A DNA stretch of 20,292 nt from a virus, in IMG/VR virus record IMGVR_UViG_3300013797_000020, positions 1-20,292 of that record; one strand, given 5' to 3'. A program made the position numbers and the translations under genes. The notes beneath the pieces are model-generated. The model did no database searches, was not told where the DNA came from, and was given only the letters and a program-made list of their open reading frames with translations. Each line of letters starts with the position of its first letter. Position 1 is the stretch's first letter. Shown here in pieces: positions 140 through 20,287 of the stretch.

Positions 140-592
140 ATGAGATGGCTATTTTTAAACAAAGAATTTAAAGAACCACCGCAGGATTTATATGGATTTG
201 TTTATTTACTAGTTTATAAAAATAAAGAAACAAATGAACAAAAGTATTATATTGGTAAAAAGAATTTTTGGTTTTATTACGAAAGAAAAGCATTAAAAGA
301 CAACAAAAAAAGGGATAATCATATATGTTTCAAAAAAAGAAGAAAAAATGGCAAATTAGAAATCTATGAGCTATTTAAAAAAGAGTCTGATTGGAAAACA
401 TATGTTGGTTCTTATAAAGGAAATTTAGATGATTTAGAGCTTATTGAAAAACAGATATTAGATTTTGCCAAAACAAAAAGACATTTAACTTATCTTGAAA
501 CTAAAATGCTATTTAAATTTGAAGTATTGGAAAATAATAATTTTCTAAATGAAAATATATTAGGAAAGTTTTATAAAGGAAACATTATCTAA
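140..592 (+). CDS. GIY-YIG-like phage endonuclease
   Basis: A 150-aa protein with the signature of small phage GIY-YIG nucleases: GFVY at residues 19-22 and YYIGK at 36-40 stand for the GIY and YIG strands. They are followed by a basic stretch (45-72), the SDWKTYVGS block (83-91), and YLETK (118-122), whose Glu120 is the likely metal-binding catalytic residue. The order SDWK..YG..S then Y.E.K is known from T4 Seg-like and related phage endonucleases. Such proteins cut DNA either as free-standing homing nucleases or as resolving/degrading enzymes; which applies here cannot be told. The start is set by AAGGAG at 126-131, 8 nt before ATG. It lies two bases after the preceding stop and leads a row of small genes. 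Confidence 0.72.
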   Translation: MRWLFLNKEFKEPPQDLYGFVYLLVYKNKETNEQKYYIGKKNFWFYYERKALKDNKKRDNHICFKKRRKNGKLEIYELFKKESDWKTYVGSYKGNLDDLELIEKQILDFAKTKRHLTYLETKMLFKFEVLENNNFLNENILGKFYKGNII

Positions 593-604
593 GAAGGAGT
601 TTTA

Positions 605-811
605 ATGGACAAAATTAAAATAATATTTGCACTAGATAAGAACAAAAAAGATGTGTTTTATGTTGAGTACAAAGACAGTAAATTTTTTACAGTAGAACCA
701 ACGATTGACTTAGAATTGGTTAAAAATACTTTAGATTGTGATGAAAAAGAATTAAAATATATTAAATCTAGATTTGATGAGTGGAAAAACAAATGTTATA
801 GGGAGGATTAA
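605..811 (+). CDS. small phage protein of unknown function
   Basis: A 68-aa protein that I do not recognise. The first half alternates hydrophobic and polar residues as in a short beta-sheet (KIKIIFALD, DVFYVEY, KFFTV) and the second half is a charged helix ending in KSRFDEWKNKCYRED. It has a strong AAGGAG site 6 nt before ATG, and its TAA overlaps the ATG of the next gene by one base (TAATG), so translation is coupled. The composition matches its neighbours and it fits an early accessory protein, but no function is visible. Confidence 0.7.
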   Translation: MDKIKIIFALDKNKKDVFYVEYKDSKFFTVEPTIDLELVKNTLDCDEKELKYIKSRFDEWKNKCYRED

Positions 812-1059
812 TGATATACAATTATGATCTTTTATATGGAGTTAGTATAAAAGAATATGTTAAAAGACATAATACTAAAATTGACAACATAATAAAAAAA
901 ACAGAAATAGATATAGCTATATTAAAGGAAAATTTATTAAAAATAACTAGAGGTAATTTGAAACATTTACCAGAAAAGTATCCTTTAATTGAAAAGGAAA
1001 TATATGATTTAATAGATAAGAAGAAAAAACATCTAGAAAGATTAAAGGAGTGGAGATGA
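811..1059 (+). CDS. small helical phage protein of unknown function
   Basis: An 82-aa basic protein that I do not recognise. Two long predicted helices, roughly residues 12-45 and 58-82, are rich in Lys, Ile, Leu and Glu, suggesting a coiled or helical-hairpin fold. Its start overlaps the previous stop (TAATG) and its TGA overlaps the ATG of the MazG-like gene (ATGA at 1056-1059). The 3' end also carries the AAGGAG of that gene, so it belongs to the same polycistron. Confidence 0.68.
   Translation: MIYNYDLLYGVSIKEYVKRHNTKIDNIIKKTEIDIAILKENLLKITRGNLKHLPEKYPLIEKEIYDLIDKKKKHLERLKEWR
1045..1050 (+). promoter_or_regulatory. ribosome binding site of the MazG-like gene
   Basis: AAGGAG lies 5 nt before ATG 1056. 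The competing in-frame GTG at 1050 would begin on the last base of this site, so the site decides the start in favour of ATG 1056. Confidence 0.75.
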
Positions 1060-1496
1060 ATTATATAAAAGAGATAGCTAAATGGCAAAAAGAAAGACAA
1101 TTAGATAAACAACCTTATAATTGGACTAATGAAGTAACAAATATTGTAGAAGAGCTATTTGAAGCTAACGGATATACAATAGATAAAAAAGATAGATTAA
1201 AGTTTTCATCAGAATTACTATTGAGATTAATTGATATTAAAGAAAAATTGGATTTAAAAAATGAAAAAATTACAACAAAAGATGCAGTAGATGCATATTG
1301 TGATATTATTGTTTTTTGCGTTGGTTCTATAATGAAATTAGGTTATGATCCAGAATGTGCATTAAAAGAAACAATAAAGGAAATATCATCAAGAACTGGT
1401 TCTATTGTTGATGGTAAGTTTCAAAAAGATACTTCAGAAGAAGCAAGAAAAAGGTGGTATAAAGCAGATTATTATAAATGTAAAAAGGATAAGTAA
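1056..1496 (+). CDS. MazG-like nucleotide pyrophosphohydrolase
   Basis: A 146-aa all-alpha protein of the MazG / dUTPase-2 / HisE fold, which hydrolyses (d)NTPs to monophosphate and pyrophosphate. The metal-binding signature is visible: an acidic helix with EExxE (E32, E33, E36) and a second helix with DAYCD (D79, D83). The family-typical C-terminal stretch SSRTGSIVDGKFQKD follows at 111-125. I place the start at ATG 1056, not the in-frame GTG at 1050, because AAGGAG at 1045-1050 is 5 nt upstream and gives the usual ATGA overlap with the preceding gene. Together with ThyX downstream it suggests control of the nucleotide pool. A role in lowering (p)ppGpp is known for some MazG proteins but is not shown here. 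Confidence 0.8.
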   Translation: MNYIKEIAKWQKERQLDKQPYNWTNEVTNIVEELFEANGYTIDKKDRLKFSSELLLRLIDIKEKLDLKNEKITTKDAVDAYCDIIVFCVGSIMKLGYDPECALKETIKEISSRTGSIVDGKFQKDTSEEARKRWYKADYYKCKKDK

Positions 1497-1792
1497 TGTT
1501 TAAAGAAGAAATGAAAAGGATTGTAAATGAACTAAATAGAAACATAGAAGAAAAAGATTTAAAAGTAAACATAAATATAGAAGAAGACTTAGTGGTAACT
1601 GCATGCTGGTTCCCTAATAGAGAGTTTGAGTGTATTTATTCAGGTGATAAAACAATGTTTATATGGCTAAAAGCAAATAGATCATATTTTGATTATTGTG
1701 AAACTCCAGATATTGTCAAGAATTTCTTTAGAAAATCATTAAAAAAAGCAGAAAGGATGAAGAATGAACGAAAGAAAGAAGCTATACGGTAA
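1496..1792 (+). CDS. small phage protein of unknown function
   Basis: A 98-aa protein that I do not recognise. It has an N-terminal charged helix (about 1-22), a beta-rich middle with aromatic residues (VTACWFPNREFECIYSG, then MFIWLKANRSYFDY), and a basic C-terminal helix. Its ATG overlaps the MazG stop (TAATG). The last 29 nt overlap the start of the DUF6378-like gene, and the ribosome site of that gene (AAAGGA) lies inside this one. Confidence 0.68.
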   Translation: MFKEEMKRIVNELNRNIEEKDLKVNINIEEDLVVTACWFPNREFECIYSGDKTMFIWLKANRSYFDYCETPDIVKNFFRKSLKKAERMKNERKKEAIR

Positions 1793-2087
1793 TTTTAAAA
1801 ATTTAGCAGAAATATCTCAAAAAATTAAAGATATATACTATACAGAAAATAATGAGCTAGATCCAACAATTAATGAAACATTTGAGATGATTGTACATAA
1901 ATTATCAAGAATAATCAATGGTGGTTCTAGATATATAGATAATTGGAGAGATGTTGCAGGATATGCACAGTTGGCTATAGATTATCTTGAAAAAGATGCT
2001 GATAATGCAATAGATAGCAAAGTAACATATTTTAGAAAATCTCATGGTCAAAAATTTACAGAATTTAATTTAGAGGAGGAACTATGA
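1764..2087 (+). CDS. DUF6378-like phage protein
   Basis: A 107-aa protein matching the pattern I know from the phage family DUF6378: a YG-N-F-AEISQ-I start (LYGNFKNLAEISQKIKDIY), a central helix FEMIVHKLSRIINGG, then DNWRDVAGYAQLAIDYLE. Such proteins are often found beside nucleotide-metabolism genes in phages and have a conserved His/Asp set (H45 in IVHKLSR, D61 in NWRDVAGY), but their activity is not established. The start at ATG 1764 is supported by AAAGGA 6 nt upstream. It overlaps the previous gene by 29 nt and ends in an ATGA overlap with thyX. Confidence 0.72.
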   Translation: MNERKKLYGNFKNLAEISQKIKDIYYTENNELDPTINETFEMIVHKLSRIINGGSRYIDNWRDVAGYAQLAIDYLEKDADNAIDSKVTYFRKSHGQKFTEFNLEEEL

Positions 2088-2933: not shown

Positions 2934-3002
2934 ATATTACTTTTTATGCAATAATAGATACAGATAGATAAATTAATAAAAAAAATTACAAAAGGATAAG
3001 AA

Positions 3003-3230
3003 ATGAATAATGTAACAGTATCTATTGAGAAACTGTTAATAATAGATTTAAGTGATTGCAATAAAGAGCATATAGAAAAGATTAAAGAAAATTTAGATAT
3101 CAAACAACATAAAGGTGAAATTGATGTAATGGATGATGATGTTTTTTATCTTATTGATTTAGGATTATTAAATAATGACATTAAAAGCTATTTAAACAAT
3201 ATAAGTAGAATAGCTTTAAAATTCGATTAA
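3003..3230 (+). CDS. small tandem-paralogue protein, copy 2
   Basis: A 75-aa acidic protein paralogous to the preceding 79-aa gene and almost collinear with it: MNNV, LIID, the LDI helix end, LIDLGLL and LNNISRI are kept, while the middle (KQHKGEID) has diverged. One residue is deleted near position 26. The leader AAAAGGATAAGAAATGAATAATG resembles that of copy 1, so the ribosome site was duplicated as well. A 69-bp AT-rich gap (2934-3002) separates the copies and shows no feature I can name. Function unknown. Confidence 0.68.
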   Translation: MNNVTVSIEKLLIIDLSDCNKEHIEKIKENLDIKQHKGEIDVMDDDVFYLIDLGLLNNDIKSYLNNISRIALKFD

Positions 3231-3248
3231 GCTTAGGAGTAAAAAACA

Positions 3249-3398: not shown

Positions 3399-3544
3399 TG
3401 GCATTGGAATGGATAATAGCTTTTATAGTATTAAGTTATATATTTGTAAAATTGTTTATATTTTGGATTAAGACTATAGTTAAAAAATGTATAAAAGAAG
3501 AAGAGAAGAGAAAGAAAAGATTTACTATTGATGATATTACTTAG
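3395..3544 (+). CDS. 49-aa single-pass membrane protein
   Basis: An ORF starting at ATG 3395 and ending with TAG at 3542-3544. Residues 5-24 (EWIIAFIVLSYIFVKLFIFW) form one hydrophobic helix, followed by a strongly basic/charged tail (KKCIKEEEKRKKR) and a short acidic end. This is the architecture of small inner-membrane phage proteins such as holins or membrane anchors, but that remains an inference. It begins in an ATGA overlap with the preceding ORF and has AAAGGAT just upstream. Its last 8 bases overlap the end of the giant minus-strand gene in a convergent arrangement. Confidence 0.55.
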   Translation: MMALEWIIAFIVLSYIFVKLFIFWIKTIVKKCIKEEEKRKKRFTIDDIT

Positions 3545-6500
3545 TATGTACAAAAGGCCAAAGATCAAACGGGAAAACCAATCTAAACAAAGCATCTTCA
3601 GATAATACAACAGATGTATTAAAATTGCCACTTGTTATTGGAGGCATTGTAGGGAACCAAGAACCAATATAGTAATATGTTTCATCACCTAATTTAATAA
3701 AATGATTATCTTTAAACCACTCTTCTCTTTTGTTCAAGTTTTCTGAATATGTTATTCCAGGTGCAAATAAAGCAGTTAGTGATACTACTAATGTTGCTTT
3801 AGGTTTGTTTCTAGAGAACATATAAATCATTTTTGGATAATTAACAGCATATTTCATATATGGACTAATTAATTCAAATCCAGAAATAACAGGATGTAAA
3901 TTTATACCATAATTAGGGAAATGCATAATAACTTTCTGAGCAGCTGTGGTTCTATTTAATCCAGAGTTTAATCCATCAATATATAGTGCAAGTTTAGGTA
4001 GCATTTCAGTATTATCAAAGTATTCTCCTAGTTTCATACCAAGTTTAGTATCAGGTAAACCAAACCATATCTTCATAAATTCATATGCTTGTTTATCTCT
4101 GAATAATGGTCTTATAGTTTTAAATAATTCATTTTCTTTGTATGCATTTACCTTTAATGCATCCTGTCTCAATGTAGATGCTAACCCATTATTAAATGCA
4201 TCATGTAAAGGGTTATCTTTTATTTTTTCAAGTATTTCATTATATTTTTTTGTAACATCACTAACTTCTAAACCATCAACCTCTTTTGCCATTATTTCAT
4301 TTTTTATCTTTGTTAATTCTGTCATATCTTTTTTGTATTGATCTATTAGTCTTCTAGCTTTTTTTATATTTGATATAAATTCTTGAGGATTATTAGATGC
4401 TAGTGCATATGTTATATATGAACTTATGCTACTATTTATATATGAAGCTAAGTTATAGTTAATTGTAACACCTTTTATAATCTTTGCTATACCAATTAAA
4501 CTTCTCAATACTTTAGCTTCTATAAAATATTTTAGTTCTGGTAAATTTTTTAATGGTTTAGTCATTACTTTAAAATTAAATCCTTTAGAACCAAGTAGTT
4601 GGTGTTTAAATCTTCTTTGTACATATAGTGTTCCATAATCTTTTGTTTTAAAGGCAATATATTTTTCTTGTAATTCTGGACTTAGCTCTTCATAGTCTAA
4701 TTTATTTATTACTACTTTAGCATCTTGTAATATTTTCATTTGGTATGCTCTAAAATTTCTTGCTAAACTGTGTGATTTATAAAGGTATATGTTTCTTTGA
4801 TACATTGTTGATATTCTTATATCAGCAAAATCATCATGTAATCCATTTAGTTTTAAATTAAACATTTCATCAGCTGATAGTTTATATAGTAGTTCAGAAT
4901 GGTTCTTTTTTGTTATTACTTTAAAGTTGCTATCTTTGCCTATATATGCCTTATAGTTGTTCTTATTTTTAATATACCAACCTCTCTTTGGATCTTTGTA
5001 AACTTTAGCAAATACTTTAGCATTATATATACCTTTTTCAAAGTTCTTTGGAGAGAATTCAACAATTATTGGATCTTGATCTCCTACTTTTACATTTGGC
5101 TCATCAGCTAAAACCATATACATTCTAGTATATTTGTCTAGCTTTATTGTTTTTAGTGTTCTATACTTACTTGATTTAGGTTTATGTTGCATTAAATATA
5201 TTTTTCTATCAAGATTTTCAAATTTTAGATCAGGGTTAAATCCAAATAATTGTTCATATTGTCCTTCTCTTTTTAATATTGTTTCATGTATTTTCCAATT
5301 TTTTACTGCTTCATTAAAATTATCTATGTTGTTTTCTAATGCTTTTAAATGTGTATCTAAGAACTCTTTACTGTTGTTCTTTAAAAAGTACTCAATTCTT
5401 TTCTTTGCTAATATTTCACCAAGTTTCTTTTCTATCTTAGGTTTATCTTTGTTAATTGTATTATACCATTCAATTTTTAGATCCATATTGCTTATTAGTC
5501 TTCCTCTTTCTTTTATTAGATCATTTGCTAGTTTAATTTCATTTATTTCTTTTTTAAGTGCAATATCTCCTTTAAGCTTTTCTATTTTTCTATATAGATG
5601 TTTTCTTATTTTGTTTCTATTACTTGTATCCTCTAGAGCCAATGCATCAAGTACCTCTTCAACATCATCTTTTACATTAATAAAGAATTTTTTCCAATTG
5701 GTTCTTTTTCTAGTATTTATTTCTCCTTTTAAAAATTCTAATGCATTGTCTATTCTATGCATCCCGTTATACATTGCTCTACCAAGATGGTAATCTAAGA
5801 TATTTTTGTTTTCTACTGATAATCCATCAAATATTTTTTTAGTGAACCAATCCTTTGAGCTAGATACCTGTTTTATCAGTTGATCTTCAAAGCCTTTATG
5901 CATAGAAGCAATTTTTTCTATTGCTTGTTTTTGTTCATCTATTTTAAATATTTCAAGTAAACCAATATTGTCTACATATTCAGACATATTTTGAAATACT
6001 TCGTGTTCAATCAATGGATCTAAATAACTATTACCTGTTGCATACTCTTTAAATCTATTTGTAAATTTCTTCTGTATAGCAAGTTTTATTGTAGCATCAG
6101 AGTTTATAGCGTTGAATATTGATCTTTTATACTCATTAAGAACAAATTTAAACTTTTTCCTTTCCTCTTCTATTAAACTGTTATTAATAAAATTATAAAA
6201 ATCTTTTAATAACTTTTTATTTGCTTTTGATTTGTATATATTTCTTAGAACAACATTTTTTTGATGATCTAACATTTCGTGTGAAAATATTACTTCAAGA
6301 AATTTAGGAACCAACTCATCTTTTGCTTCATTATTAAGTAAGTAAAACCTTGGTTCATTTATTTTAAATAACTTTTTATATTTACTACCTTGATCGCTTT
6401 CTAAGAACTCAATAATTGTTTGTCTAAATAGATCAAAGTCATAGTCCAGATTTGTTTCTTTTGCTTTTATTTTTAAAAACTCATCAGACATATGAACCAA

Positions 6501-9500
6501 CTCGTGAACAATACCTCTTAATAAATTAATATCTTCAGCATCATCTATCAGTTTTCTATTTATTCTTAGTATACCTTTTACTATACTACTGCTTGTATCT
6601 ATTGCAATTTCAGCATTTTGTATAGCACTCATTGTATCAACTATTTCAATATCTTCTATTTTAACATTTGGTACTATGTTTTTATTATTTCCAAGATATA
6701 TTTTAGTTTGTATGTTGTCAAATATTTCATCAATCTTTGCTTTATCTTCAAGTTGGTTCTTTTCTATATATTCTTCTATATATTTTCTAACTGTTTCATT
6801 TTCTTTTTCATATTTTTTAATTACTTCTTCATATTCTGGTTCAGCATATTTTCTTTTAATATCTTCTAGTTTTTCTACTATCTCTTTTGTATATATATTT
6901 TCTAATATCTCGTCATATTTACTATATATTTTATTTACTTCTCCCATATTTTCAATTAAGCCATCCTTTTCATTTTTAAGGCTTTCTATTTCTTCTTTTA
7001 TTTTTTCTTTTTCTATTTCATTTTCATCTGCAGTATTTTTAAGATTTTCTTTAAGTTTTTTTATTTCTTTTTCAATCATCTCTTTTTCTTTAATAAATAA
7101 CTCTTTTAATGATTTATTTTTATACTTATATAACCATTTATTTTCTTTCATAAACTCTTTTATAAACTCTTTATCTTCTAGTGGATCTTTATTTAGTTTA
7201 TTTTCATTTTCTTTTATTTTTTTTTCTATTTTTTTAAACTCATCAGAGTCTTTTTTTAAATTTTTTAGTTTATCTTTTAGTTCTTTTATATTTTGTTGTA
7301 TTTTGTTGTGATATGCACTAACAAAGGTTCCATCTTCTGCTATCTTTCTTTTTATTATCATATTTCTAAAGTTTTCAGAAGGGTTATTTGCCTCTATGCC
7401 CTCAATATATTTTTTAAAACTTTCTAATGTCTTTTCTACTGTTTCTTTTTTAGCAAGATTTTCATCTATGTTTTTAATTGTAATTTCTATTAAGTTTTTT
7501 AGTTCATCTTTTTCTGCAATTTTACTTTCTTCTATTTCTTTTTTTAGTTTTTCTAGTTTTCTTTTTAAATCATCTACATTTAAATATGTTACTCTAAAAA
7601 AACCATCTTTTGGTTTATTTTTTAACCTCATAAATTCATCTAAAAGCATATTTGTTTTATATTTGGAATTTGTTTTATATTTTCTTTTACCATAGAAATT
7701 ATTTTTGTTTGTACCACGGGAAAACTCAATACTATATATTCTTTTATTTTTTATATTTCCAATATCTCCTAAAATTCCTTTTTTTTGGAAATTGCCGCTT
7801 AATATTGTTGAACTTTTTCTTTGATATTTGTCTCCAGCATGTCTGTAAAGTGCTTTAGTATATCTATCTAATACATCTAATATACCTAATACAGTATTTT
7901 TTACTTTTTCTCTTCCTTTAATATATTTAGTCTTTTTTTCAATGTCTTTTATTTTTTCACTCAACTTGGTTCTTTCTTTAACCATTCCTTTCTTCTTTTC
8001 TCCAAATAGAAAATCGTCTATCTTTTCCATATTAGGGACTATTCTATATTTAAAAGATTTTCCATCTTCATACATATCATATGCATATTTTAATTTATTT
8101 CTTTTTGCTATTTTTCTATGCGTTGGTTCTGACATTTCATTATCAGAAATTATCTCACCAGCTGAATTCTTTTTAGTGTTTTCTTCTTTAACAATATCAA
8201 GATATTGAAGATCTTCTGCTTCTAAATCTTTTTCAATTGCTTCTCTAATTTTTTTTATTCCTTCTTCGTCAATTCTATCTTCTCTTAAATCTTCTATTCT
8301 TTCGGTAAAGTGGTCTAATACTTCTTCTCTGTTTTCTTTAAAAAATTTTTCCTTAACTTCTTTTATAGAAGTATCATCAAGACTATCAGTAACAGGTATT
8401 TCATCTCCATCTATAAAACTTTTTTGACCAACCATTACATCTTTAATATCTCTTAATGCATCTGATATGGTTATTTTTATCTTTTCTTCTTCAGAAAAAT
8501 TTGTTCCTTCATTCTGTCTCCATTCATTAAATACTCTTTTTCTTATTATTGCTTTTACTTTTTTATCATTTCCTTTACCAAGAGATGTTGCTACTTTATC
8601 AGCTACTCTTTTTGCTTTATCAATTATACTTCCTTCTTCTTTAAATGCTTTAATTGCATCATCAATAAGTATTTCATACTCAGCTTCAAGACTCTTTTTT
8701 ATTTTTCTATTAGAACCAACAGTTGGTTCTTTATAGTTTTGATCAGATAGACTAAACAGTGGTTTACCAGCTACTTGTTTTCTTATAGCTTCTGGAGTTA
8801 TTTTTGCTGTTTTTGTATCAATAACTAAAGTATTGCCATTATCTTCTATTTTACCTTTAAATATAAATGGTGACTTTCTATCTGGCATTATATTAGATAT
8901 TATTTTATTAGTCTCTTCATCTATAAATACTGAGTTGTATTTGTCTACTAGTTTATTAGCTTCATCTTCATCTATCTTTTCATAATATAGGTTTTCATTA
9001 AGTCCTTTCTTGATCTCTTGAAAAGAACCATCTTTCTTTTTAACTATGGCATAACCTTTATTTTCTAAAGCCATTCTTACAATTAGGTCTATAGGTTTAA
9101 TATCTTTTCCTGTGACTTTCTGAATTGCACTAGTATCAAACTTAGCTGATCCTGCATTAGCTAATTTTGCACTAAAAACTCTATTTTGCAATGCATTTGT
9201 TGCTTTACTATATACAGTAAAAGGAAGATAGAAGACTGATGCTAATGCTAAGCTAGTCCCTACATTTTTACCTAAATCAAGAGTATCAAATTCTTTAATA
9301 TCTACTTTTTGGTTCTCTAAATCAAGTGATGTATTTTCTTTAACTGTTGCATCTGCTCCTTCTACAAAAGCCATATATGTTTCAGCTGCCATTATATCAG
9401 ATGGAGTTAGTTCTGATGGTTTTCTTTTTGCTTTTCCTAATATTGTTGTTGTTATTGGTTTACTACTAAGCTTTGATAATTTATCAGTTAAATATTTATT

Positions 9501-11489: not shown

Positions 11490-11879
11490 CTATTCCCCCA
11501 TATATCTTCTAGTTAATTCTTCTCTTAGTGTTTTAATCCTTGCTAACTCTTCTTTTGTTTTATCCCATTGTTCTCTAGCTATTCCTAGTTGATTTTTAGC
11601 AAGTTTGTAATTCTGAAAACCTAACCATAAAGAACCAAGGGTGGATAGTCCTTGAGCTATGCCAAGTGCTGGAACAATATATTTTCCATATATTCCACTG
11701 TTCATATTTTTTTGAGTTTTATAAAAATCAATTTTAGTTTTATAAAGATCAACTAGTGTATTTTTTAGTATGTCATCAATGTTTGGTTGTTGAGGTGTAA
11801 CAACTATTGGTGAGCTTAAAAAGTCCCTTAGAAAATAATTATTACTAAATCCTGATAATGTAGGAAAATTTTCTCCCAT
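11490..11879 (-). CDS. small virion-like protein with hydrophobic segment (possible gp14-like)
   Basis: A 129-aa protein. Residues 62-90 (SGIYGKYIVPALGIAQGLSTLGSLWLGFQN) are a Gly/Ala/Leu-rich hydrophobic segment, followed by an amphipathic charged helix (LAKNQLGIAREQWDKTKEELARI). Podovirus pore-forming internal proteins such as T7 gp14 often combine a membrane-active segment with a helix of the LAKxQ...Q pattern. With a 549-aa and a 2105-aa protein downstream, a role in the DNA-ejection channel is a reasonable inference. The start is supported by AAGGAT 7 nt upstream. No enzyme motif is seen. Confidence 0.68.
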   Translation of the reverse strand: MGENFPTLSGFSNNYFLRDFLSSPIVVTPQQPNIDDILKNTLVDLYKTKIDFYKTQKNMNSGIYGKYIVPALGIAQGLSTLGSLWLGFQNYKLAKNQLGIAREQWDKTKEELARIKTLREELTRRYMGE

Positions 11880-11890: not shown

Positions 11891-12205
11891 TTATATTCTT
11901 TGAACATTATATTTACTCACAAACCTTATTTTAGCTTTCTCCATATTACCTTCTCTTGCTATTCTATTAGCTTTCTCCTGAGGTATTTTTAGGTTGTTCA
12001 TTATTTCTCTTACATTAATTCCATTATCATCAACTCTTTTTGGTTCTTTCATTCTTTCTATTGTTTTAACATCATTTTCAGAAACTATAATAGGTACTTC
12101 AAAAGGAATAACTTTTCCATTTACTTTTACATAGCCTTCTCTAAATGCATTATCTGTTGCTGGTTTAACTATTATCTTTACTCCATTTATTTTTGATCTA
12201 GACAT
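11891..12205 (-). CDS. small protein downstream of the capsid gene, unknown function
   Basis: A 104-aa basic protein that I do not recognise. Its first half looks like a small beta-sheet domain (INGVKIIVKPATD, GYVKVNGKVIPFEVPIIVSE), its second half is helical (VREIMNNLKIPQEKANRIAREG) and ends in a short strand. Small proteins right after the capsid gene in phages are often capsid decoration or head-completion proteins; this is only position-based. AAGGAG lies 7 nt before ATG. A 42-bp gap containing a perfect hairpin separates it from the capsid gene. Confidence 0.68.
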   Translation of the reverse strand: MSRSKINGVKIIVKPATDNAFREGYVKVNGKVIPFEVPIIVSENDVKTIERMKEPKRVDDNGINVREIMNNLKIPQEKANRIAREGNMEKAKIRFVSKYNVQRI

Positions 12206-12224: not shown

Positions 12225-12253
12225 ATATAAGAACCAACAGGTGGTTCTTATAT
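12225..12253 (-). promoter_or_regulatory. 12-bp perfect hairpin at the 3' end of the capsid gene
   Basis: Arms ATATAAGAACCA (12225-12236) and TGGTTCTTATAT (12242-12253) pair perfectly around a 5-nt loop (ACAGG on the plus strand). The minus-strand transcript passes the capsid stop codon (12248-12250) inside the first arm. No run of T follows on the minus strand, so it does not look like a classic intrinsic terminator. It is better read as a weak attenuator, an RNA stabiliser or processing site, or as a DNA-level pair of the TGGTTCT motif. Confidence 0.6.
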
Positions 12254-13324
12254 GTTAAATATTGCTTTTACTAATCCAATTCTTTCTGGATTGATAGTCA
12301 ATGCTCCTAACCAAGACTTCCAACCAACCAATTGTGTTCTATTAAGTGGATCTGATTTATCATTGGTATCAAGTCCTTTAACAACTACTTCAATTCTCTT
12401 TTTGCCTCTAATAGGAACATTAGCTGTATGCTCCTTACCTAGAACCAACATATAACCAATATATTCTCCAGAAGTACCTGTTTCTTCAGTTAGCATATTT
12501 TCATTTTCTATTAATCTAATATCCTTTATCATACCAATTTCACCATCTAGTACTTTTATACCAGAAGCATATTTTTCTAGTGGTACAAAATCTGGATTAT
12601 CCTTCATTGCTTCTCCCATCATAGGGTTAACAATACCAATATACCTTGACCATACTGGTTCTGTTCCATAATTTGGACTTGCTTTTAAGATTTGATTTAC
12701 ATATTTAGCTCCACTTAGCTTCAATTGTAAACTTATCTTTCTAGCAGAATTACTAAATTCGGTACTAGTAACATTATTATCTGGAGCTGTATTACCAGTG
12801 ATATCCTGTAGATGTCCTGCACTATTTATATATAAATCTCTATAAAAACCATCAATATAAAATGAAGCTACATCAGAGTATTGCTTAACATTTTCAGCTA
12901 CTGTATACATATCGTGGAATAAATTAGTCTCTTCAGTAACTTTCATCCACATACCAATAGGAAATACTTCAGTCTGTAGTTCTACTACTTTCATTTGTCC
13001 ATTTTCAGAACCACTGTCTCCTTCAGGCAAGATTATGTTATTGTACGCATTTGGTTCTATTAATGTAGCTATTCCTTCTCCTGCTGTTGTTACATTATTT
13101 CCTGTATAGTTTAGATAGATGTTATTTGCGATCATAAGATCCTTCATTGGTACCCATCTTCTAAATTTAATAGTTTTACCACTATTTTCTGGCAAAGCTT
13201 TTTGAATAGATGCAAATCTATCAAAGATAGTTTTTTGTGCAACCTCAGTAGTCATAAGCTTATCTAAATAAGCTTGTTGAGGTGCACCTAATCCACTACC
13301 TTGTGTTCCGTAAGTAAGTGCCAT
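12248..13324 (-). CDS. major capsid protein, N4-gp56 family
   Basis: A 358-aa protein that resembles the N4-gp56 family of HK97-fold capsid proteins. The N-terminus (MALTYGTQGSG) is followed by a helix with TEVAQKTIFDRFASIQKALPENSGKTIKFRRW, then a loop of the E-loop type, ELQTEVFPIGMWMKVTEE, the segment RDLYINSAGH, and the SGAKYVNQILKASPNYG helix before the last beta strands (RIEVVVKGLDTND..., LVGWKSWLGALTI). It would form the capsid shell. Its length is usual for the family. AAGGAG stands 7 nt before ATG and the scaffold-like gene precedes it, as expected for a head module. Confidence 0.85.
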   Translation of the reverse strand: MALTYGTQGSGLGAPQQAYLDKLMTTEVAQKTIFDRFASIQKALPENSGKTIKFRRWVPMKDLMIANNIYLNYTGNNVTTAGEGIATLIEPNAYNNIILPEGDSGSENGQMKVVELQTEVFPIGMWMKVTEETNLFHDMYTVAENVKQYSDVASFYIDGFYRDLYINSAGHLQDITGNTAPDNNVTSTEFSNSARKISLQLKLSGAKYVNQILKASPNYGTEPVWSRYIGIVNPMMGEAMKDNPDFVPLEKYASGIKVLDGEIGMIKDIRLIENENMLTEETGTSGEYIGYMLVLGKEHTANVPIRGKKRIEVVVKGLDTNDKSDPLNRTQLVGWKSWLGALTINPERIGLVKAIFNI

Positions 13325-13327
13325 TTT

Positions 13328-14305
13328 TTACTCCTTGAATATTTGTTTTTCTAGTTCTTCAAGTGAGACATTATCATCCCACACCTTATCGTAATCATCA
13401 TATTTATTAACTACAGTTCTTTTTTTGGTTTGTTTTTTTTGAACTGCAGTTGTTGGTTCTTTTTGTTCTTGTTGAGGTTTAACAATATTACTTGCAATTG
13501 ATACATAGGCATCAATCCAACTAATTGATGGATTTAGCGCTTTAAGTTTTACTGTTTCTGGATATACCTCATCAAATTCTCCAGATAAAACAGATCCAAC
13601 AAAAGCTTTGAAAAGATTAATATCTGACATAATCTCTTGTTGAAATCCTTCTTCCATCTGGTTGTATGTATCAAGTACTTTCCCAGACTCTTTTGGGTAA
13701 GTTTTAGAAAACTCATTCCAAAAATCAATAACAGGATTGTCCTGTTTTTGCTCTACTTCTGGTTCATATTTTGGTTTTTCTTTTTTATTATCTTCTTCAA
13801 AAAAGTCATCTTCAAAATCATAATCCTCATTAGCTAACTTAATGTTATATTTGTTAGCTAAATACTCTAATGCTTCTTGCTTGCCTTCTTTTATATCAGC
13901 AAGTGCTTTAATATCAGCTGGTTCTAATCCTGTTTTTTCAATAATATCTATTGCTTGTCTAAAAGGTTTGATACGAGACATTTTAAACTCGTAATCAAGT
14001 CCTTTTTGCATCAATACAATAGCTTCGTCTTCACTTTTAACATAAATCTCTCTACCTTTATGCTTTAAAGGTTTTGTAATTAATACTCCATTTGTAGTAT
14101 CTTGTTCTGTTTCTGTTTCCTCTACGTTGGATCCAACATCTTCTTGATTGAAGATATTTTCTTCCTCAACATTTTCTTCCCATACTTTGTCGTATGTATT
14201 CTCATCTTCTACAACATTCCCTTCTTCGGGAGTAGTTGCTAATGTATCTTCTTCAGAGTTAACATTAGCATCCTGAGGAGTAGCTAAAGTTTTATTATCT
14301 TCCAT
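13328..14305 (-). CDS. putative scaffolding protein
   Basis: A 325-aa, very acidic, low-complexity and helical protein directly upstream of the capsid gene and after the portal: the composition and place of a head-assembly scaffold. The first 90 residues are Glu/Asp/Asn-rich, a folded-looking block (95-150) contains KHKGREIYVKSEDEAIVLMQ and TGLEPADIKALADIKEG, and an acidic linker (160-185) and a helical part follow. The motif YDKVW[ED][ED]NV occurs at 38-46 and again at 305-313, next to a basic stretch (KKQTKKRT), typical of a C-terminal capsid-binding helix. The start has AAAGGA upstream; it ends 3 nt before the capsid start. Confidence 0.72.
   Translation of the reverse strand: MEDNKTLATPQDANVNSEEDTLATTPEEGNVVEDENTYDKVWEENVEEENIFNQEDVGSNVEETETEQDTTNGVLITKPLKHKGREIYVKSEDEAIVLMQKGLDYEFKMSRIKPFRQAIDIIEKTGLEPADIKALADIKEGKQEALEYLANKYNIKLANEDYDFEDDFFEEDNKKEKPKYEPEVEQKQDNPVIDFWNEFSKTYPKESGKVLDTYNQMEEGFQQEIMSDINLFKAFVGSVLSGEFDEVYPETVKLKALNPSISWIDAYVSIASNIVKPQQEQKEPTTAVQKKQTKKRTVVNKYDDYDKVWDDNVSLEELEKQIFKE
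13367..13393 (-). other. scaffold motif YDKVWDDNV, C-terminal copy
   Basis: Codons 305-313 encode YDKVWDDNV, preceded by a basic stretch and followed by a short amphipathic helix. This is the expected place of a scaffold's capsid-binding region. Confidence 0.7.
14168..14194 (-). other. scaffold motif YDKVWEENV, N-terminal copy
   Basis: Codons 38-46 of the scaffold-like gene encode YDKVWEENV, nearly identical to codons 305-313 at the other end of the same protein. A short peptide repeated at both ends suggests two equal binding sites on one chain. Confidence 0.7.
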
Positions 14306-14315
14306 TTACATTCCT

Positions 14316-14537
14316 TTATTGTTTTTTAATTTGTTCAATATTATCATAATCTAATGCATAATTCAAGAAATCTCTAAGAATTTTCCTTGCTTTTAACTCA
14401 TCTCTAACACTTTCATTATCTACATTGTCTTCTAATGTATATGTAAGAATACCCTTTTCAATAAATTCTTTTAGAACCAACTCTTGGAAATCTTTATTGT
14501 TCATCAGGTCTTTTGCCATCTGTGACATTGTTTTCAT
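14316..14537 (-). CDS. small protein between portal and scaffold genes
   Basis: A 73-aa helical protein (MKTMSQMAKDLMNNKDFQ...) of unknown function. I choose ATG 14537 over the TTG at 14546 because AAGGAG (14547-14552) lies 9 nt before the ATG but directly abuts the TTG. It overlaps the 3' end of the portal gene by 44 nt in another frame and ends 10 nt before the scaffold start. Small genes at this place are common in podovirus head modules. Confidence 0.7.
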   Translation of the reverse strand: MKTMSQMAKDLMNNKDFQELVLKEFIEKGILTYTLEDNVDNESVRDELKARKILRDFLNYALDYDNIEQIKKQ

Positions 14538-16383
14538 CTGTATCAACTCCTTTCAATTTATTAACTACATCAGCATATTTGTTTGCTACATCAGCATCAA
14601 TAGATGCCAACTCTTTTTGTGCTCTAGCTTCTGTCGCTTTGGTTCTTGCTAATGCATTTTGTGCCAATGCTTGTTCTTTTTGCGCCTTAGCCTGTTTTTC
14701 AGCCATTTCTAGTTGCATCATTTGTTGTTGTAATGGATTTGGCTGCTGTTTGAAATTAGCAACTTTTTCAGATAGATCTGGATAATCAAATAGTTCAAAT
14801 AGTTTAGCAAGTAGTTGTTGTATTATTTCTGGTGGAACAGCACCAGCTTGAACCAAAGATGCGCTTTGTTGCATAAGCATATTTATCTGATTGATCTTTA
14901 TTTGTTTTAATCCATCAGTTCCTATTTGTATTTTTATATCATATTTAGTTGTTTCTTTATCAAATACTTTCTCTACTTCTTGCATAATTAACATCATTGC
15001 TTTTTGAGCTGTTTCTTGATCAAGTTCTTCTAAGTTATATTCTCTTTTTAGTTTTTCAATCATTTTAGCTTTTTCTTCAGCAAATGTGGTTCCAGATATT
15101 TGTAATACTTGTTCTTCAGTTATATAATCTAATATCATCTCTATCCACATAAAGAAAAGTTTTTTTAATCCTCTACTAACATTATTTTCAATATCAAGTA
15201 ATCTTATTTGAGATTGTGTCATTATCGTTTGTGTAGCTGTAGCTGTAGAGTTTTGTAAATCAATTAATCCTTGCATATATTTACTAACTCCAGTTAATCC
15301 CTCCGCTTGGTTCTCTATTATTTGTAATAAGTTATATACACTTGCAGGTAATTCATTAAAACTACCATCCCTAATAACTCTACTTACATCATCAGTAGCA
15401 TTTATTTCAACTACTGGTTTACCCTCCATTAAGTTCTTGAAGTTTATGCTATCTAGTGCTCCTTTTTTAACAAACTTAATACCATTGTTACTCATAGCCA
15501 TATTATCAATAACACCTCTAACAATAGAAGTCATAAACTTTTGTTCATCACTAATTATATCAGCTAATGCTCTACCCCATATATTAAATTCTTCATCATA
15601 AAAAGGAAAATCAATAAAAGGATACCAGCTATATTCATACTCTTCATTAGATAATATTTCTGTATTTTTATCATCATTTATAAAAGATATTACATATACT
15701 TTATCTTTCTTTTTATACCAATATTCATAAAGAAATGTTTCATTATTTTCTTCCCTCTTAAAAGAACCAATCTCTCTATTGTGTAGGTCATCAGTAAACT
15801 CGTCACTATCTTCTTCTTGCAGTCTTTTAAAACTATTTATTGCTTCTTTATCATATATAGGGTTACTTTCTAGTTCTTCATATGTGGTTCTAAATCTATG
15901 AATTATAAATTTACTTTCTTGTAGTGATGAAGCATCTGGATCTGTAAATATATCTTCATTATAAAGAACTTCAGCATATGGTTTGTTTTCTTTTTTATTT
16001 TGGATCCAACTAACTTTAGCAAATGCTATTCCTTCTTTAACCATAACCCTTACAAGAGTTTTTATAAATTTAACCTTATCAAATTCTTTATTGAAAAAGA
16101 AATTTAATAGCTTATTGTCTATGTTTGCCTTATGAATGTCATACCTAGTCCGTGGTTCTAAATTAATTACATCAGAACCAGTTAGGAATGGTTTAACAAG
16201 GTTAGCAATAAGTATTTCTCCGTGCTTTTTAATTAACTTCCATACTATTTTGCTTCTACCCTCTATTTCATTACCATAGGGTTCTCCATTATATTCATCT
16301 GTCCATTTTTTTATTTTGTCATTTATCTTTTGTTTATGTTGTTTTGCATTTTCTAAATCAACAATTATTGTTTGTCTGTTCAC
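14494..16383 (-). CDS. portal protein
   Basis: A 629-aa protein that would form the ring at the capsid vertex for DNA passage. The middle contains the typical segment FNIWGRALADIISDEQKFMTSIVRGVIDNMAMSNNG, then YNLLQIIENQAEGLTGVSKYMQGL and TATATQTIMTQSQIRLLDIE, which I recognise from P22/N4-type portal proteins. The C-terminus (about 540-615) is Gln/Ala/Lys-rich and helical (EMAEKQAKAQKEQALAQNALARTKATEARAQKE), like a barrel or coiled coil. The start is GTG 16383: AAGGAG at 16389-16394 lies 5 nt upstream and overlaps the stop of the preceding gene. It is followed by a small gene, scaffold and capsid, the expected head order. Confidence 0.85.
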   Translation of the reverse strand: MNRQTIIVDLENAKQHKQKINDKIKKWTDEYNGEPYGNEIEGRSKIVWKLIKKHGEILIANLVKPFLTGSDVINLEPRTRYDIHKANIDNKLLNFFFNKEFDKVKFIKTLVRVMVKEGIAFAKVSWIQNKKENKPYAEVLYNEDIFTDPDASSLQESKFIIHRFRTTYEELESNPIYDKEAINSFKRLQEEDSDEFTDDLHNREIGSFKREENNETFLYEYWYKKKDKVYVISFINDDKNTEILSNEEYEYSWYPFIDFPFYDEEFNIWGRALADIISDEQKFMTSIVRGVIDNMAMSNNGIKFVKKGALDSINFKNLMEGKPVVEINATDDVSRVIRDGSFNELPASVYNLLQIIENQAEGLTGVSKYMQGLIDLQNSTATATQTIMTQSQIRLLDIENNVSRGLKKLFFMWIEMILDYITEEQVLQISGTTFAEEKAKMIEKLKREYNLEELDQETAQKAMMLIMQEVEKVFDKETTKYDIKIQIGTDGLKQIKINQINMLMQQSASLVQAGAVPPEIIQQLLAKLFELFDYPDLSEKVANFKQQPNPLQQQMMQLEMAEKQAKAQKEQALAQNALARTKATEARAQKELASIDADVANKYADVVNKLKGVDTDENNVTDGKRPDEQ

Positions 16384-16388
16384 ATTAA

Positions 16389-16394: not shown

Positions 16395-18066
16395 AATACA
16401 ATGTAAAATCTACTCTACACATTGCGTCAATAGCTTCTAGTTGATTATATTGAAAACTATATATTGTATCGTAGTATGAGTCTACTAGATCTAGAGGAGA
16501 GTATAAAGCATTCTTCCTCATCTCTCTTATTTCTTCAGTATATTCTTCACTTTCTCTTCTATATTTTTCTATCTCTCTGTATGTTTTAGTTACTTTTAAA
16601 TCAAGTTCAACTAAAAATAGATCAGATGTCATTTTTATTGACATAAATGCAGTATCAAATGCTTTCAATTTACCAGCTTGATATGCTTTAAATCCTCCAT
16701 ATAGAACCAACCCTATTTGAACAGCTAATTTAATATATTTATTATCAGTTAAAGCTGATACCGCTGTTGTTGCAGCAAATGAAATAGCCGTAAGAACTGG
16801 ATTAATGTAAAAACCAAATCCAAGAGTAAATACCATAAAAACAAAACTAAAAAAACCAGATTGATACCATTTCTTTTTTACAGTTACTTCTGCATAAAGT
16901 AGTACATTATATAGATCTCTAATAATATCATATTTTTCTCTTAATGGTTTTCTTTTTATATAGTCAAATGGAATTATGACTGCTTCTAAATCACTACTTT
17001 CTACACCTGTTTTAGTTCCTTTGTATGTCACTTTTAATTTTAAACTATCACCTTCATTAATCCAGATATATCTTATTGTTATTTCACCTTGATATGTAAC
17101 ATCAATTGGATTATACTCTGTTCCATATACTTCTTCTATTGTATCTTTAAATTTAGGATTATTATATCTAGTAGAAGTTATTATTGCTACATCTTTTACT
17201 TTATCATCTGACATAATGTTTTCTTCAAAATCAGAACCAAGGGAGAATTTATGATATAAAGCATTTTTATATCTTGTTCCAGTAGCTACAAATTGACCAT
17301 CTTTTTTAACAACATATAACAGTGCTTTTCTGTTTATAGTTATACGACTGACATCTGATGATGGTATTATGATATATCCATCATAATCGTCTTGAGTTAC
17401 TGGATAATTAAGTACAAATTCTCCATATGCTGTTAAGTAAAATATTCTATTATCAATTGGAGTTACTATATCTATTATATCTTCTTCATCATTTTCATTA
17501 TATAACGTAATAGTATAAGAACCATCGTTATTCATACCATAATTAATTACTTTATAATAGTTTCCATTATTATGTATATCATATTTATAGATTTTGTTTT
17601 CAACTGTTACAACTCTACAATCAGAACCACCGGAAGCATCATAATAATAAGACTCTGTTATTATATCTTCATGACTAGTATCATACGGGTATGCATAGTT
17701 TAAATATTCTGATATGGTAACTGTTTCTCCAGATATAACAACTCCATAGCAATCTTTTGTAGTTATAACACCAAGTCCTAAGTAGTTTAGATTAATTCCA
17801 GTTTTTTCAGCAACAACTCTTTTAAAATCTTCATGATCCATCTCTTCAGATTTTAAGTTGCCATCAATAATAACACCAAACCTTTCAAGCATTTTATTAT
17901 TAAAGAATACATTTATATTTTGTATCATCTGTTTTGTAAATACGATTGGGTCTATTCTTTTTGTTAAAGCAAAAATTCTTAGAATGTCTTTTGTAAATAG
18001 GTTATCATCTTCATCAAACATATTTGTTATAGTTATTTCACTATATGTTGTTGATTTACTACCCAT
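16393..18066 (-). CDS. structural or tail protein with hydrophobic segment, unknown function
   Basis: A protein of 557 aa (ATG start 18066) or 564 aa (GTG start 18087). I prefer ATG because it gives an 8-nt overlap with the previous gene; neither start has a strong ribosome site. Residues 1-395 look beta-rich and are Asp/Tyr/Ile-rich (YDIHNNGNYYKVINYGMNN..., DEEDIIDIVTP...). A hydrophobic stretch (about 404-438, GFFSFVFMVFTLGFGFYINP and AISFAATTAVSAL) and a weaker one (447-459) follow, then a charged helical C-terminus (REIEKYRRESEEYTEEIREMRK). Located just before the portal it could be a tail or tail-tip protein with a membrane-active segment, but I do not recognise a family. Confidence 0.65.
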   Translation of the reverse strand: MGSKSTTYSEITITNMFDEDDNLFTKDILRIFALTKRIDPIVFTKQMIQNINVFFNNKMLERFGVIIDGNLKSEEMDHEDFKRVVAEKTGINLNYLGLGVITTKDCYGVVISGETVTISEYLNYAYPYDTSHEDIITESYYYDASGGSDCRVVTVENKIYKYDIHNNGNYYKVINYGMNNDGSYTITLYNENDEEDIIDIVTPIDNRIFYLTAYGEFVLNYPVTQDDYDGYIIIPSSDVSRITINRKALLYVVKKDGQFVATGTRYKNALYHKFSLGSDFEENIMSDDKVKDVAIITSTRYNNPKFKDTIEEVYGTEYNPIDVTYQGEITIRYIWINEGDSLKLKVTYKGTKTGVESSDLEAVIIPFDYIKRKPLREKYDIIRDLYNVLLYAEVTVKKKWYQSGFFSFVFMVFTLGFGFYINPVLTAISFAATTAVSALTDNKYIKLAVQIGLVLYGGFKAYQAGKLKAFDTAFMSIKMTSDLFLVELDLKVTKTYREIEKYRRESEEYTEEIREMRKNALYSPLDLVDSYYDTIYSFQYNQLEAIDAMCRVDFTLY

Positions 18067-18487: not shown

Positions 18488-18494
18488 TGTTATC

Positions 18495-19025
18495 CTATAA
18501 ACTATTAACTATATCATCATAAATGGTACTAGCCTTGTCTTGACTAATTATTGACGGTTCTCTTGTCAACATACCAGAACTAAACATCATAGACCATGCA
18601 TTTAGTTGTGCTTCTAGCAATTTAAGTCTTACATTATCGTTAAATCCTTGTCTCTGTCTTTGATATAGTAGTTTTTGTTCCTGTTTTATTTCTAGATCTT
18701 TTTGTGATTGATCTTCAGAAATATTTCTATCACTATTCACTTTACTTGCTTGTGCATTCTTAAGTGCTATTTCAGCATTTTTTAACAATAAGTCTTTACT
18801 AGATTGTGCTTCATTTATTGCCCTATCACTATTTATTTTTCTAACTTGTGCTTCATTTAATGGAGATTGAAATGCTAATTGTAAACATCTATCCATCAAT
18901 TGTGCATAAACATTTGCATAATCAGTTCCCTTTAATCTACCCTTTTCAAACTGTTCATCTAAGTCTTCTTTTACCTTTTGTGTTAAACTATCATAAATAG
19001 AACCAACCTGTGATATATTATACAT
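18495..19025 (-). CDS. helical repeat virion-like protein, unknown function
   Basis: A 176-aa protein, mostly a charged helix. A 21-residue unit, AQxxKxNSDRxIxExQSxKDL, occurs at 59-79 and again at 91-111 (14 of 21 identical), a 32-residue period, followed by a Lys/Gln/Arg-rich helix (KQEQKLLYQRQRQ). The end is a shorter folded part (NVRLKLLEAQLNAWSMMFSSG). Such rod-like proteins with Gln/Ser/Lys repeats occur among phage virion parts, including tails and internal cores, but no specific family is recognised. It overlaps the metallopeptidase gene by 8 nt, with AAAGGAT before the ATG. Confidence 0.65.
   Translation of the reverse strand: MYNISQVGSIYDSLTQKVKEDLDEQFEKGRLKGTDYANVYAQLMDRCLQLAFQSPLNEAQVRKINSDRAINEAQSSKDLLLKNAEIALKNAQASKVNSDRNISEDQSQKDLEIKQEQKLLYQRQRQGFNDNVRLKLLEAQLNAWSMMFSSGMLTREPSIISQDKASTIYDDIVNSL
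18693..18851 (-). repeat. two 21-codon repeats, 96-bp period
   Basis: Codons 59-79 and 91-111 of the 176-aa gene are related, with 14 of 21 residues kept. The DNA also keeps similar stretches, such as CTATCACTATT followed by a TTGTGC core, in both copies. It looks like a recent-to-moderate internal duplication that lengthened a helix. Confidence 0.65.
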
Positions 19026-19377
19026 TAGATATCCTTTCTTTAGCTTCTTTAAAATCTATATTTAGATTATACTTTGTTGATAAATACATTGCAAATTTGT
19101 CAAGACTATTTGGACTATATTTTAATTGAGCTCTATATGCTTCTACTTCAGCTTTTAATCTATACTTTTTAGAGAACAAGTATAAAAATAAATGTAATCC
19201 AAATGTTCTGTATATTTGTTTAATATGGGTTAACTCGTGTTGTAATAAGCCAATATCATTCTCATATTTTTTGTTAATAAGAATAACAAAGGGATATGTA
19301 TAACCAGCAAAGCCATTTGGTTTGTTAGAAACATAAATTATAACAGCAAAAGGTTTTTTGTTTATTTTAAATTTCAT
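19018..19377 (-). CDS. small HExxH metallopeptidase-like protein
   Basis: A 119-aa protein with HELTH at 47-51 and a downstream EVEAYR element (77-82), whose Glu would be the third zinc ligand. A hydrophobic strand (PFAVIIYVSN) and a Gly-rich bend (NGFAGYTYPFVILIN) come before it. This is the layout of small zinc metallopeptidases of the M48/SprT-like type seen in phages, which can act on a virion or host protein; the target is unknown. It is coupled by ATGA to the DUF1353 gene upstream and overlaps the next gene by 8 nt. Small size and the absence of a secretion signal leave open that it is a non-catalytic relative. Confidence 0.65.
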   Translation of the reverse strand: MKFKINKKPFAVIIYVSNKPNGFAGYTYPFVILINKKYENDIGLLQHELTHIKQIYRTFGLHLFLYLFSKKYRLKAEVEAYRAQLKYSPNSLDKFAMYLSTKYNLNIDFKEAKERISNV

Positions 19378-19709
19378 TTTCTATACCTTATGATATGATA
19401 TAGTCTAACAGTAAAATAAATAATGTACAATTTAAACTTTGGAGTATCTAATTCTTTTCCAGCTTCTAATAAATACTTATCAGCTTTTTTGTATTGCTTT
19501 AAATCACATAAATAGTCGTGTATGCAATATACAGGCAAAAAAGTGCTTTCATTTGGAGGTAAAAAGAACCAAAACACTCTTGGAACATTACCCCCATTGG
19601 TTCTATAACCTTTTGGAACCACAATATCTTTAAATTTAATATCTTCTATTATTTTATATCTGTGGTTCTTTAAAGGTTGTAAAATAAAATTAGAGTACTT
19701 TAATTTCAT
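19374..19709 (-). CDS. DUF1353 family phage protein
   Basis: A 111-aa protein with the DUF1353 pattern: VPKGYRTNGGNVPRVFWFFLPP (33-54), then VYCIHDYLCDLKQYKKADKYLLEA (60-83) with the typical His-Asp pair. The family is common in phages and often lies near endolysin or tail genes, but its activity is not established. Here it is coupled on both sides by ATGA overlaps to the 193-aa protein and to the small metallopeptidase-like protein. The small ATG-coupled trio may form a functional unit. Confidence 0.78.
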   Translation of the reverse strand: MKLKYSNFILQPLKNHRYKIIEDIKFKDIVVPKGYRTNGGNVPRVFWFFLPPNESTFLPVYCIHDYLCDLKQYKKADKYLLEAGKELDTPKFKLYIIYFTVRLYHIIRYRK

Positions 19710-20287
19710 AGTGGATACTCTGGATATATTGGTTCTCTATTTTCTTCTATTGCTTTTTTAAGTTCACTTTTGCATCTTTGAACCCAAGTAACTCTTATAC
19801 CAACTTTTAATAATTGTAGATATGCTTCTCTAGTGTCATCAGTTAAATCTTCTATAGTATTCAATACTTCGTCTATTGTTTGTCCATCATAATATTTTGA
19901 TACTATTGATGCAATGGTTGCTTCAAGATTTTGAACACCATTTGCTTTTAACAAGGTAGAATAATATTCTTTGTCTGCTTGATCACTAGCTTGTTTTATT
20001 TGTGAATAATATTTGTAAATATGATTTTTAGTTTGGCTATATTTTTCATTTATCCATTCTTCTACAGTTCTTTCATAATCAATTACAATGTTTTCATTAT
20101 TATCAAACATATAAAATATTTCACTAAAATGTCTCTGTTCATCGTCAGGTACAGTTGGCAGGTTTTCTGGATTAACTTTTATAAATTTAACAGAACCGTT
20201 TTTCTGTTTTTTTAAAAACTCATCTTCTGTTATACTAACTGGTAATGTTATCTTGTATAGTTTGTTGTTTAGTTCTCTAAAGATCAT
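19706..20287 (-). CDS. unknown protein at the right edge
   Basis: A 193-aa protein with ATG at 20285-20287; the ribosome site would lie beyond the window. The first 70 residues look alpha/beta (NNKLYKITLPVSITEDEF..., FIKVNPENLPTVPDDEQRHFSEIFYMFD), followed by an acidic helical part (EEWINEKYSQTKNHIYKYYSQIKQASDQADKEYY) and a conserved-looking tail (AYLQLLKVGIRVTWVQRCKSELKKAIEE, then PIYPEYPL). I do not recognise a family; the pattern is compatible with a phage tail or assembly protein. Its TGA overlaps the next ATG (ATGA). Confidence 0.65.
   Translation of the reverse strand: MIFRELNNKLYKITLPVSITEDEFLKKQKNGSVKFIKVNPENLPTVPDDEQRHFSEIFYMFDNNENIVIDYERTVEEWINEKYSQTKNHIYKYYSQIKQASDQADKEYYSTLLKANGVQNLEATIASIVSKYYDGQTIDEVLNTIEDLTDDTREAYLQLLKVGIRVTWVQRCKSELKKAIEENREPIYPEYPL

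Follow-up and report, generated by a model that had tools for sequence, protein, structure and literature searches.

Motif sites and genes of the window

The stretch analysed here, hereafter the window, comprises the 20,292 bases of the viral record IMGVR_UViG_3300013797_000020 (27% GC), in which a short word, TGGTTCT or AGAACCA on the opposite strand, recurs at high density; its probable role as a primase start site is the subject of this report. Read on the plus strand, the window contains 29 copies of TGGTTCT and 22 of AGAACCA, the first beginning at 172 and the last at 19730, i.e., about one word per 400 bases. Exact matches on the plus strand lie at 406-412, 1322-1328, 1397-1403, 1922-1928, 2646-2652, 3947-3953, 4900-4906, 5699-5705, 6754-6760, 7967-7973, 8124-8130, 8724-8730, 9310-9316, 10718-10724, 10750-10756, 11319-11325, 12041-12047, 12242-12248, 12656-12662, 13052-13058, 13454-13460, 13919-13925, 14640-14646, 15308-15314, 15885-15891, 16153-16159, 19598-19604, 19663-19669 and 19730-19736. 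Exact matches with TGGTTCT on the minus strand lie at 172-178, 694-700, 2383-2389, 3660-3666, 4587-4593, 8712-8718, 9024-9030, 9576-9582, 11447-11453, 11631-11637, 12230-12236, 12441-12447, 13007-13013, 14473-14479, 15763-15769, 16174-16180, 16703-16709, 17233-17239, 17518-17524, 17623-17629, 18999-19005 and 19565-19571.

The minus strand encodes the major capsid protein (12248-13324; phrog_1357, E 1e-38) and the portal protein (14494-16383; PF23899 SU10_portal, E 3e-81; phrog_1216, E 3e-96). Also on the minus strand, a 2105-aa late protein (3537-9854) occupies the position of the virion RNA polymerase (vRNAP) and matches it by hhalign (prob 95.6, E 1.2e-8). The alignment is confined to the C-terminal ~290 aa, and the protein falls short of the ~3500-aa vRNAP by ~1400 aa, so that it may lack the RNA polymerase domain; it also contains a HELVHM zinc-peptidase-like motif. 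The N4-type portal and capsid, together with the block of primase, Sak4, SSB, exonuclease and RuvC genes, group the phages represented by the window and its relatives with the N4-like phages (Schitoviridae). The early operon encodes a SegE-type GIY-YIG endonuclease (PF19835; 140-592). Two similar adjacent small open reading frames (ORFs) at 2694-2933 (MNNVKVYTEEFLIIDIS...) and 3003-3230 (MNNVTVSIEKLLIIDLS...) are an apparent tandem duplication.

Over-representation, shape and strand pattern of the word

Base composition predicts 1.9 copies of the word in the window, so that the 51 copies observed represent a 27-fold excess, and a trinucleotide Markov model predicts 6.1-6.4. Under both models the word ranks first in over-representation among the 7-mers of the window. 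Restricted to ORFs, 47 copies were counted against 8.4±2.5 expected (z=15.7) after permutation of synonymous codons, a shuffle that keeps every protein and the codon usage, takes ORFs as defined by length and is blind to dicodon bias. Density is alike in the two operons, at 2.4 copies/kb in the early one and 2.5 copies/kb in the late one. An earlier note, made from the sequence of the window alone, had reported 51 copies against about two expected (about 25-fold) in both operons, and our exact recount bears this out; neither the Markov nor the codon-shuffled model, both of which the note had suggested as checks, reproduces the count. The note was also right that both orientations are used, while its counts for the 6-mer, 31:24, become 35:29 on recounting, and its coordinates for TGGTTCT were off by one (5699, 7967 and 8724 are correct, instead of 5700, 7968 and 8725).

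Pooled over seven related contigs, the fuller motif is AGAACCAA[C>T,G], which reads 5'-GTTGGTTCT-3' on the opposite strand. Positions G2, A3 and A7 are nearly inviolable, with slight tolerance at A4 and A8, and AGAACCAAC occurs 125 times in the seven contigs against 2.2 expected.

Based on hand-picked gene coordinates, 49 copies in the window are genic and the other two form an intergenic inverted pair at 12225-12253. Sense and antisense genic copies are balanced (23:26). The independence from reading frame claimed in the earlier note holds only in part: all frames are used, but a single phase holds 31 of the 49 genic copies, which read Gly-Ser in sense (18) or Glu-Pro in antisense (13). Such a bias is to be expected if selection acts on the DNA while certain readings are more easily tolerated by the proteins. 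The inverted pair, whose arms are the copies at 12230-12236 and 12242-12248, has the form TATAAGAACCA-ACAGG-TGGTTCTTATA and makes a long hairpin just past the capsid stop codon, ahead of the ribosome-binding site of the next gene; the two motif copies may together form an element for RNA processing or termination.

Along the related contigs described below (hereafter vent contigs), successive sites switch strand 559 times against 462±15 upon permutation of orientations, 6.5 standard deviations above chance, and the mean distance between sites on the same strand is 440-860 bp, depending on the contig. Taken as a whole the sites are not periodic (coefficient of variation of the gaps 0.6-1.2), and strand alternation is the sole clearly non-random feature of their arrangement.

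Distribution and retention in relatives

Relatives were found through capsid, portal, terminase and motif-pair scans. The word is one of the two highest-ranking 7-mers in 18 of 18 loci whose terminase is 52-100% identical to that of the window, and likewise in V28534, whose terminase is 33% identical, while it is at background in L336-L338, terminase relatives at ~29-33% identity and of similar GC. Enrichment beyond the window and in related phages, which the earlier note had proposed as a check, is thus seen in all close relatives. Across 12 assembled contigs the word reaches 1.9-4.2 copies/kb, and the codon-preserving null gives z values of 22-34 in the long vent relatives. The enrichment in one locus, L061, was considered as an artefact of a peptide repeat (EPEEP), an idea countered by L316 from the same metagenome, in which the word is enriched too.

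Sites are preferentially retained. When relatives with ~80% nucleotide identity are compared, 62-73% of the aligned sites remain intact, as opposed to 23% for other 7-mers; the corresponding figures at 84% identity are 73-80% and 34%. Unshared sites occur in both members of each compared pair, which points to site turnover under purifying selection. Together, preferential retention, the codon-shuffle z of 15.7, strand symmetry and alternation support the proposal of the earlier note that selection acts on the DNA and not on codons or peptides.

One related contig originates from metagenome IMG 3300005095, which features in published work on sulfide chimneys of deep-sea hydrothermal vents (PMC7329443). 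Among cultured phages, those of Campylobacter have the ThyX closest to the phage ThyX. Given this affinity and the vent chimney metagenome, the vent phages likely infect Campylobacterota. In locus L004, a 104-aa ORF (19579-19893, minus strand) bears a sigma-70 region-4-like sequence (GVTRERVRQIENSALRKIR) and has a homologue in V488_4 (L132; 642-902); judging from its sequence, it is possibly a phage sigma factor.

A helicase-primase fusion in the replication block

The long relatives that span the replication region encode SSB-like, PD-(D/E)XK exonuclease, Sak4-like, RuvC-like resolvase, UvsW-like helicase, ThyX and MazG-like proteins, as well as a 698-aa fusion of a helicase with an archaeo-eukaryotic primase (AEP). 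Vent contigs G004-G007 encode the AEP primase, as do contigs G023 and G024, and all of them carry the word, G023 weakly. Over its full length the fusion is homologous to the Schitoviridae gp43 "DNA primase" (phrog_2135, E 1.3e-66). Residues D72, D74, T95, T96 and R112 are invariant and H99 nearly invariant among 32 sequences, and define DxD and TTKxH motifs. An AlphaFold2 (AF2) model of the AEP part built from these 32 sequences reached a pLDDT of 92.6 and superseded an earlier, poor three-sequence model (pLDDT 57). Its only significant PDB match is the AEP domain of the S-2L PrimPol (E 7.5e-7, prob 1.00), while sequence-profile searches with the primase returned no PDB relative. By its catalytic motifs and the model match, the gp43-like protein belongs to the AEP superfamily, which is marked by DxD, sxH and related motifs in an RRM-like core. 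The vent protein consists of an N-terminal helicase/ATPase, the AEP core and then a C-terminal helix bundle, where PriCT_1 scores just under the cut-off. No family A DNA polymerase (DNA_pol_A) was found in the vent contigs, which extend up to 46 kb and are incomplete; the N4 control was positive.

Dialects of the word in N4-like phages

In 40-50 kb of each N4-like genome, we ranked every hexamer without prior selection of words, against a null that preserves codons. TGGTTC is the top hexamer of N4 (z 14.7; 140 copies against 43 expected, strands 67:73) and of Axy10 (z 12.0), and comes second in RHph_X3_15 (z 7.7). TGGCTT and TGGTTT lead in LUZ7 (z 12.0 and 11.7, respectively) and Photobacterium phage TEMp-D2 (z 13.5 and 11.6), as they do in KPP21 with TGGTTT first (z 10.8 for TGGTTT, 10.2 for TGGCTT), and CTGGCTT is the top 7-mer of Arno152 (z 10.1). 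TTGGTT is on top in BUCT194 (z 12.7), SP-076 (z 10.0) and Sulfitobacter phage AX (z 9.5) and second in Vibrio phage 1.261.O (z 6.3). TGGTTC is shared by phages of Escherichia, Achromobacter and Rhizobium, and TGGYTT by phages of Pseudomonas, Photobacterium and Pectobacterium. None of the dialect words is enriched in T7, phiKMV or Campylobacter phage CPX (z -0.9 to 1.6). Strand alternation is also present in the N4-like panel (870 against 810±19) and is strongest in LUZ7, KPP21 and TEMp-D2.

TGGTTC likewise tops the metagenomic primase contigs G024 (113 kb, z 13.6) and G023 (67 kb, z 6.4). We further examined 45 IMG/VR primase loci with a length of 11 kb or more. The leading hexamer contains TGG[TCA]T in 20 of them, where chance predicts 0.5, and in 1 of 20 control contigs; as the loci are related to one another, a binomial P should not be read literally. 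Word enrichment in N4-like phages is therefore widespread, not universal. In the literature searched, which covers subscription journals incompletely, we found no earlier description of the motif from N4-like phages, and a search on the word itself gave nothing relevant.

Two further observations concern single genomes. A 113-kb contig, IMG 3300048629_000034 (L372-L377), encodes a gp43-like primase and contains 202 copies of TGGTTC against 80, which extends the signal to larger phages. The top word of Alteromonas phage R22Y (L352) is GTAGTT (z 8.8), which is strand-balanced, and the palindromes CCCGGG and CTGCAG are over-represented there in a restriction-like manner.

A probable primase start site

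We consider it probable that the phage's own gp43-like helicase-AEP primase recognises the word on the template as its start site. The enrichment beyond codons, the strand symmetry and alternation, the retention of sites, the co-occurrence with the AEP primase gene and the dialects in N4-like phages are all observed and speak for this reading; that the primase reads the word and starts primers there is deduced from them. A precedent comes from another vent phage, NrS-1, whose PrimPol has been shown experimentally to initiate at 5'-TTTGGTTA-3' in the template (Zhu 2017, as cited in PMC8718748), an 8-nt requirement that is unusually long among PrimPols (PMC7102993). According to the same citing source, the site is bound in AEP enzymes by the helix-bundle domain (Boudet 2019, cited in PMC8718748). 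The NrS-1 and vent systems have in common a vent-phage AEP enzyme, a long template site (a putative one in the vent phages) with a TTGGTT core and an AEP that is fused to both a helix bundle and a helicase. By our own estimate, fewer than 1% of random 8-mers would have a run of six bases in common with the present word on either strand. The shared TTGGTT and the helix bundle behind the AEP core lead us to propose the gp43-type primase as the reader of the word. We infer that this primase would bind 5'-(G)TTGGTTCT-3' on the template strand, probably via the helix bundle behind the catalytic core, and that a primer would be laid down next to the bound word. Selection would then keep the word on each strand every ~0.5-0.9 kb, about the length of an Okazaki fragment; as a word of 7-9 bases is rare by chance at 27% GC, its copies would have to be maintained by selection.

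Several points weigh against this reading. The window itself is without the primase gene and most early replication genes. Genes for Sak4, SSB and an exonuclease accompany the primase and any of their products could therefore read the word, and no biochemistry of any gp43-type primase was found in the literature searched. As many as 25 of the 45 IMG/VR primase loci are without such a top word, some only through low power, and none was found in VBP47 and pYD6-A, Fuhrmanvirinae of close architecture; alternation is weak or absent in SP-076 and RHph. The NrS-1 precedent is also imperfect: its genome has two copies of the site, proposed as origins, whereas ~50 copies occur here in 20 kb and on both strands; NrSPol also uses GTG; and the order Prim/Pol, helix-bundle domain, C-terminal helicase of the NrS-1 PrimPol is reversed in the vent protein, with no sequence-level match found between the two enzymes.

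A broader proposal, which we regard as rather doubtful, is that N4-like phages share a "priming code", a template signal of 6-9 nt with lineage dialects (TGGTTC, TGGYTT, TTGGTT and TTGGTTCT) that would be strand-spaced and selected for the AEP primase. In the vent clade, in which no conventional DNA polymerase was found, the enzyme may even copy the genome alone from more than 100 primer-independent starts. As far as we could find, lagging-strand priming is not established in N4-like phages. If the primase reading is right, the sequence of a phage genome alone would give the start site of its primase, the dialects and the spacing, and primase specificity would become readable and testable in sequenced phages by the hundreds, among them N4 as a laboratory model. 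A replication enzyme would then, unusually, have shaped coding content genome-wide, as in the frequent Gly-Ser and Glu-Pro-Thr of unrelated proteins.

Alternative explanations

The earlier note had listed a primase start site, a host Chi or uptake signal and a site for a methylase or nucleoid-type protein as candidates; we favour the first, while host signals fit poorly and a methylase or nucleoid protein is without specific support. The word could also be a recombination signal of the phage, namely a Chi-like site that would regulate the exonuclease/Sak4 annealing system of the primase operon. The genes for the PD-(D/E)XK exonuclease, Sak4-like annealing protein, SSB and RuvC are indeed conserved beside the primase and enrichment on both strands would be predicted as well, but strand alternation at ~0.5-0.9 kb per strand would not, and the independent TTGGTT precedent of the NrS-1 PrimPol concerns priming only. 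Moreover, we know of no sequence-specific regulator of a Sak4-type system, and we judge this explanation unlikely.

Dense sites could be selected by any sequence-specific DNA-binding protein, such as a packaging or nucleoid-like protein, and the adenines of the word are open to a one-strand methylase. This appears improbable: phages usually lose restriction/modification sites rather than gain them, alternation is not predicted, and no methylase was detected among the proteins scanned with Pfam and PHROGs, a scan covering part of the vent ORFs.

A host Chi or DNA-uptake sequence matched by the phage would account for a non-palindromic word that is dense on both strands and occasionally forms inverted pairs, as uptake sequences do, and the vent phages probably share Campylobacterota hosts. 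Yet the word or a dialect is on top in N4 (E. coli) and Axy10 (Achromobacter) and strong in RHph (Rhizobium), and dialects are shared by gp43-bearing phages whose hosts are E. coli, Achromobacter, Rhizobium, Pseudomonas, Photobacterium, Salmonella and Sulfitobacter. T7 and phiKMV, which infect two of these same hosts (E. coli and Pseudomonas, respectively), are without them, and so is CPX. Ten bacterial and archaeal genomes, taken from the hits of the motif-pair scan described below, contain only 9-42 copies of AGAACCAAC per 1.2-6.8 Mb, about a hundredfold under the phages. A host origin of the signal is thus quite improbable, although the host may contribute to it within the vent clade. A TerL-alignment scan of genome contigs for the host chromosome revealed no relative, and a motif-pair scan of genome contigs gave, among the matches listed, scattered hits with no vent clade prominent. 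In the Lachnospiraceae metagenome-assembled genome C.B3_9, a hairpin AGAACCAAC-N3-GTTGGTTCT is repeated in five retrieved loci (L169, L182, L198, L214 and L225); judging by their form, they are a family of terminator-like repeats that has no connection with the phages.

Finally, a compositional or codon artefact of one phage lineage with favoured codons and dipeptides (Gly-Ser, Glu-Pro-Thr), as the strong phase preference (31 of 49 genic copies) might suggest, is hardly credible given codon-preserving z values of 15.7-34, antisense copies as numerous as sense ones, copies outside ORFs near the length-expected rate and site retention far above that of background 7-mers.

Comparison with known systems

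The gp43 protein of N4 and other Schitoviridae (phrog_2135) is homologous to the vent primase over the whole protein, and the N4 genome is enriched for TGGTTC. N4 differs from the vent phages by its shorter word and its 3-fold rather than 6-8-fold enrichment; it also has a family A DNA polymerase (gp39), which was not found in the incomplete vent contigs. Primases mostly need 2-3 template bases, NrS-1 being exceptional. Short-site primases such as T7 gp4 (GTC) and pRN1 ORF904 (GTG) resemble the proposed system in starting primers at a specific sequence of the template strand, but their sites are of 3 nt, for which enrichment is unneeded, and T7 is without TGGTTY enrichment. Chi sites and the DNA uptake sequences of Neisseria and Haemophilus are, like the present word, dispersed, non-palindromic, found on both strands and selected. 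The Chi site of E. coli is GCTGGTGG, whereas the top word of the E. coli phage N4 is TGGTTC and so does not match the recombinase signal of its host. Unlike Chi and uptake sequences, which are defined by the host, the present word tracks a phage replication module across unrelated hosts.

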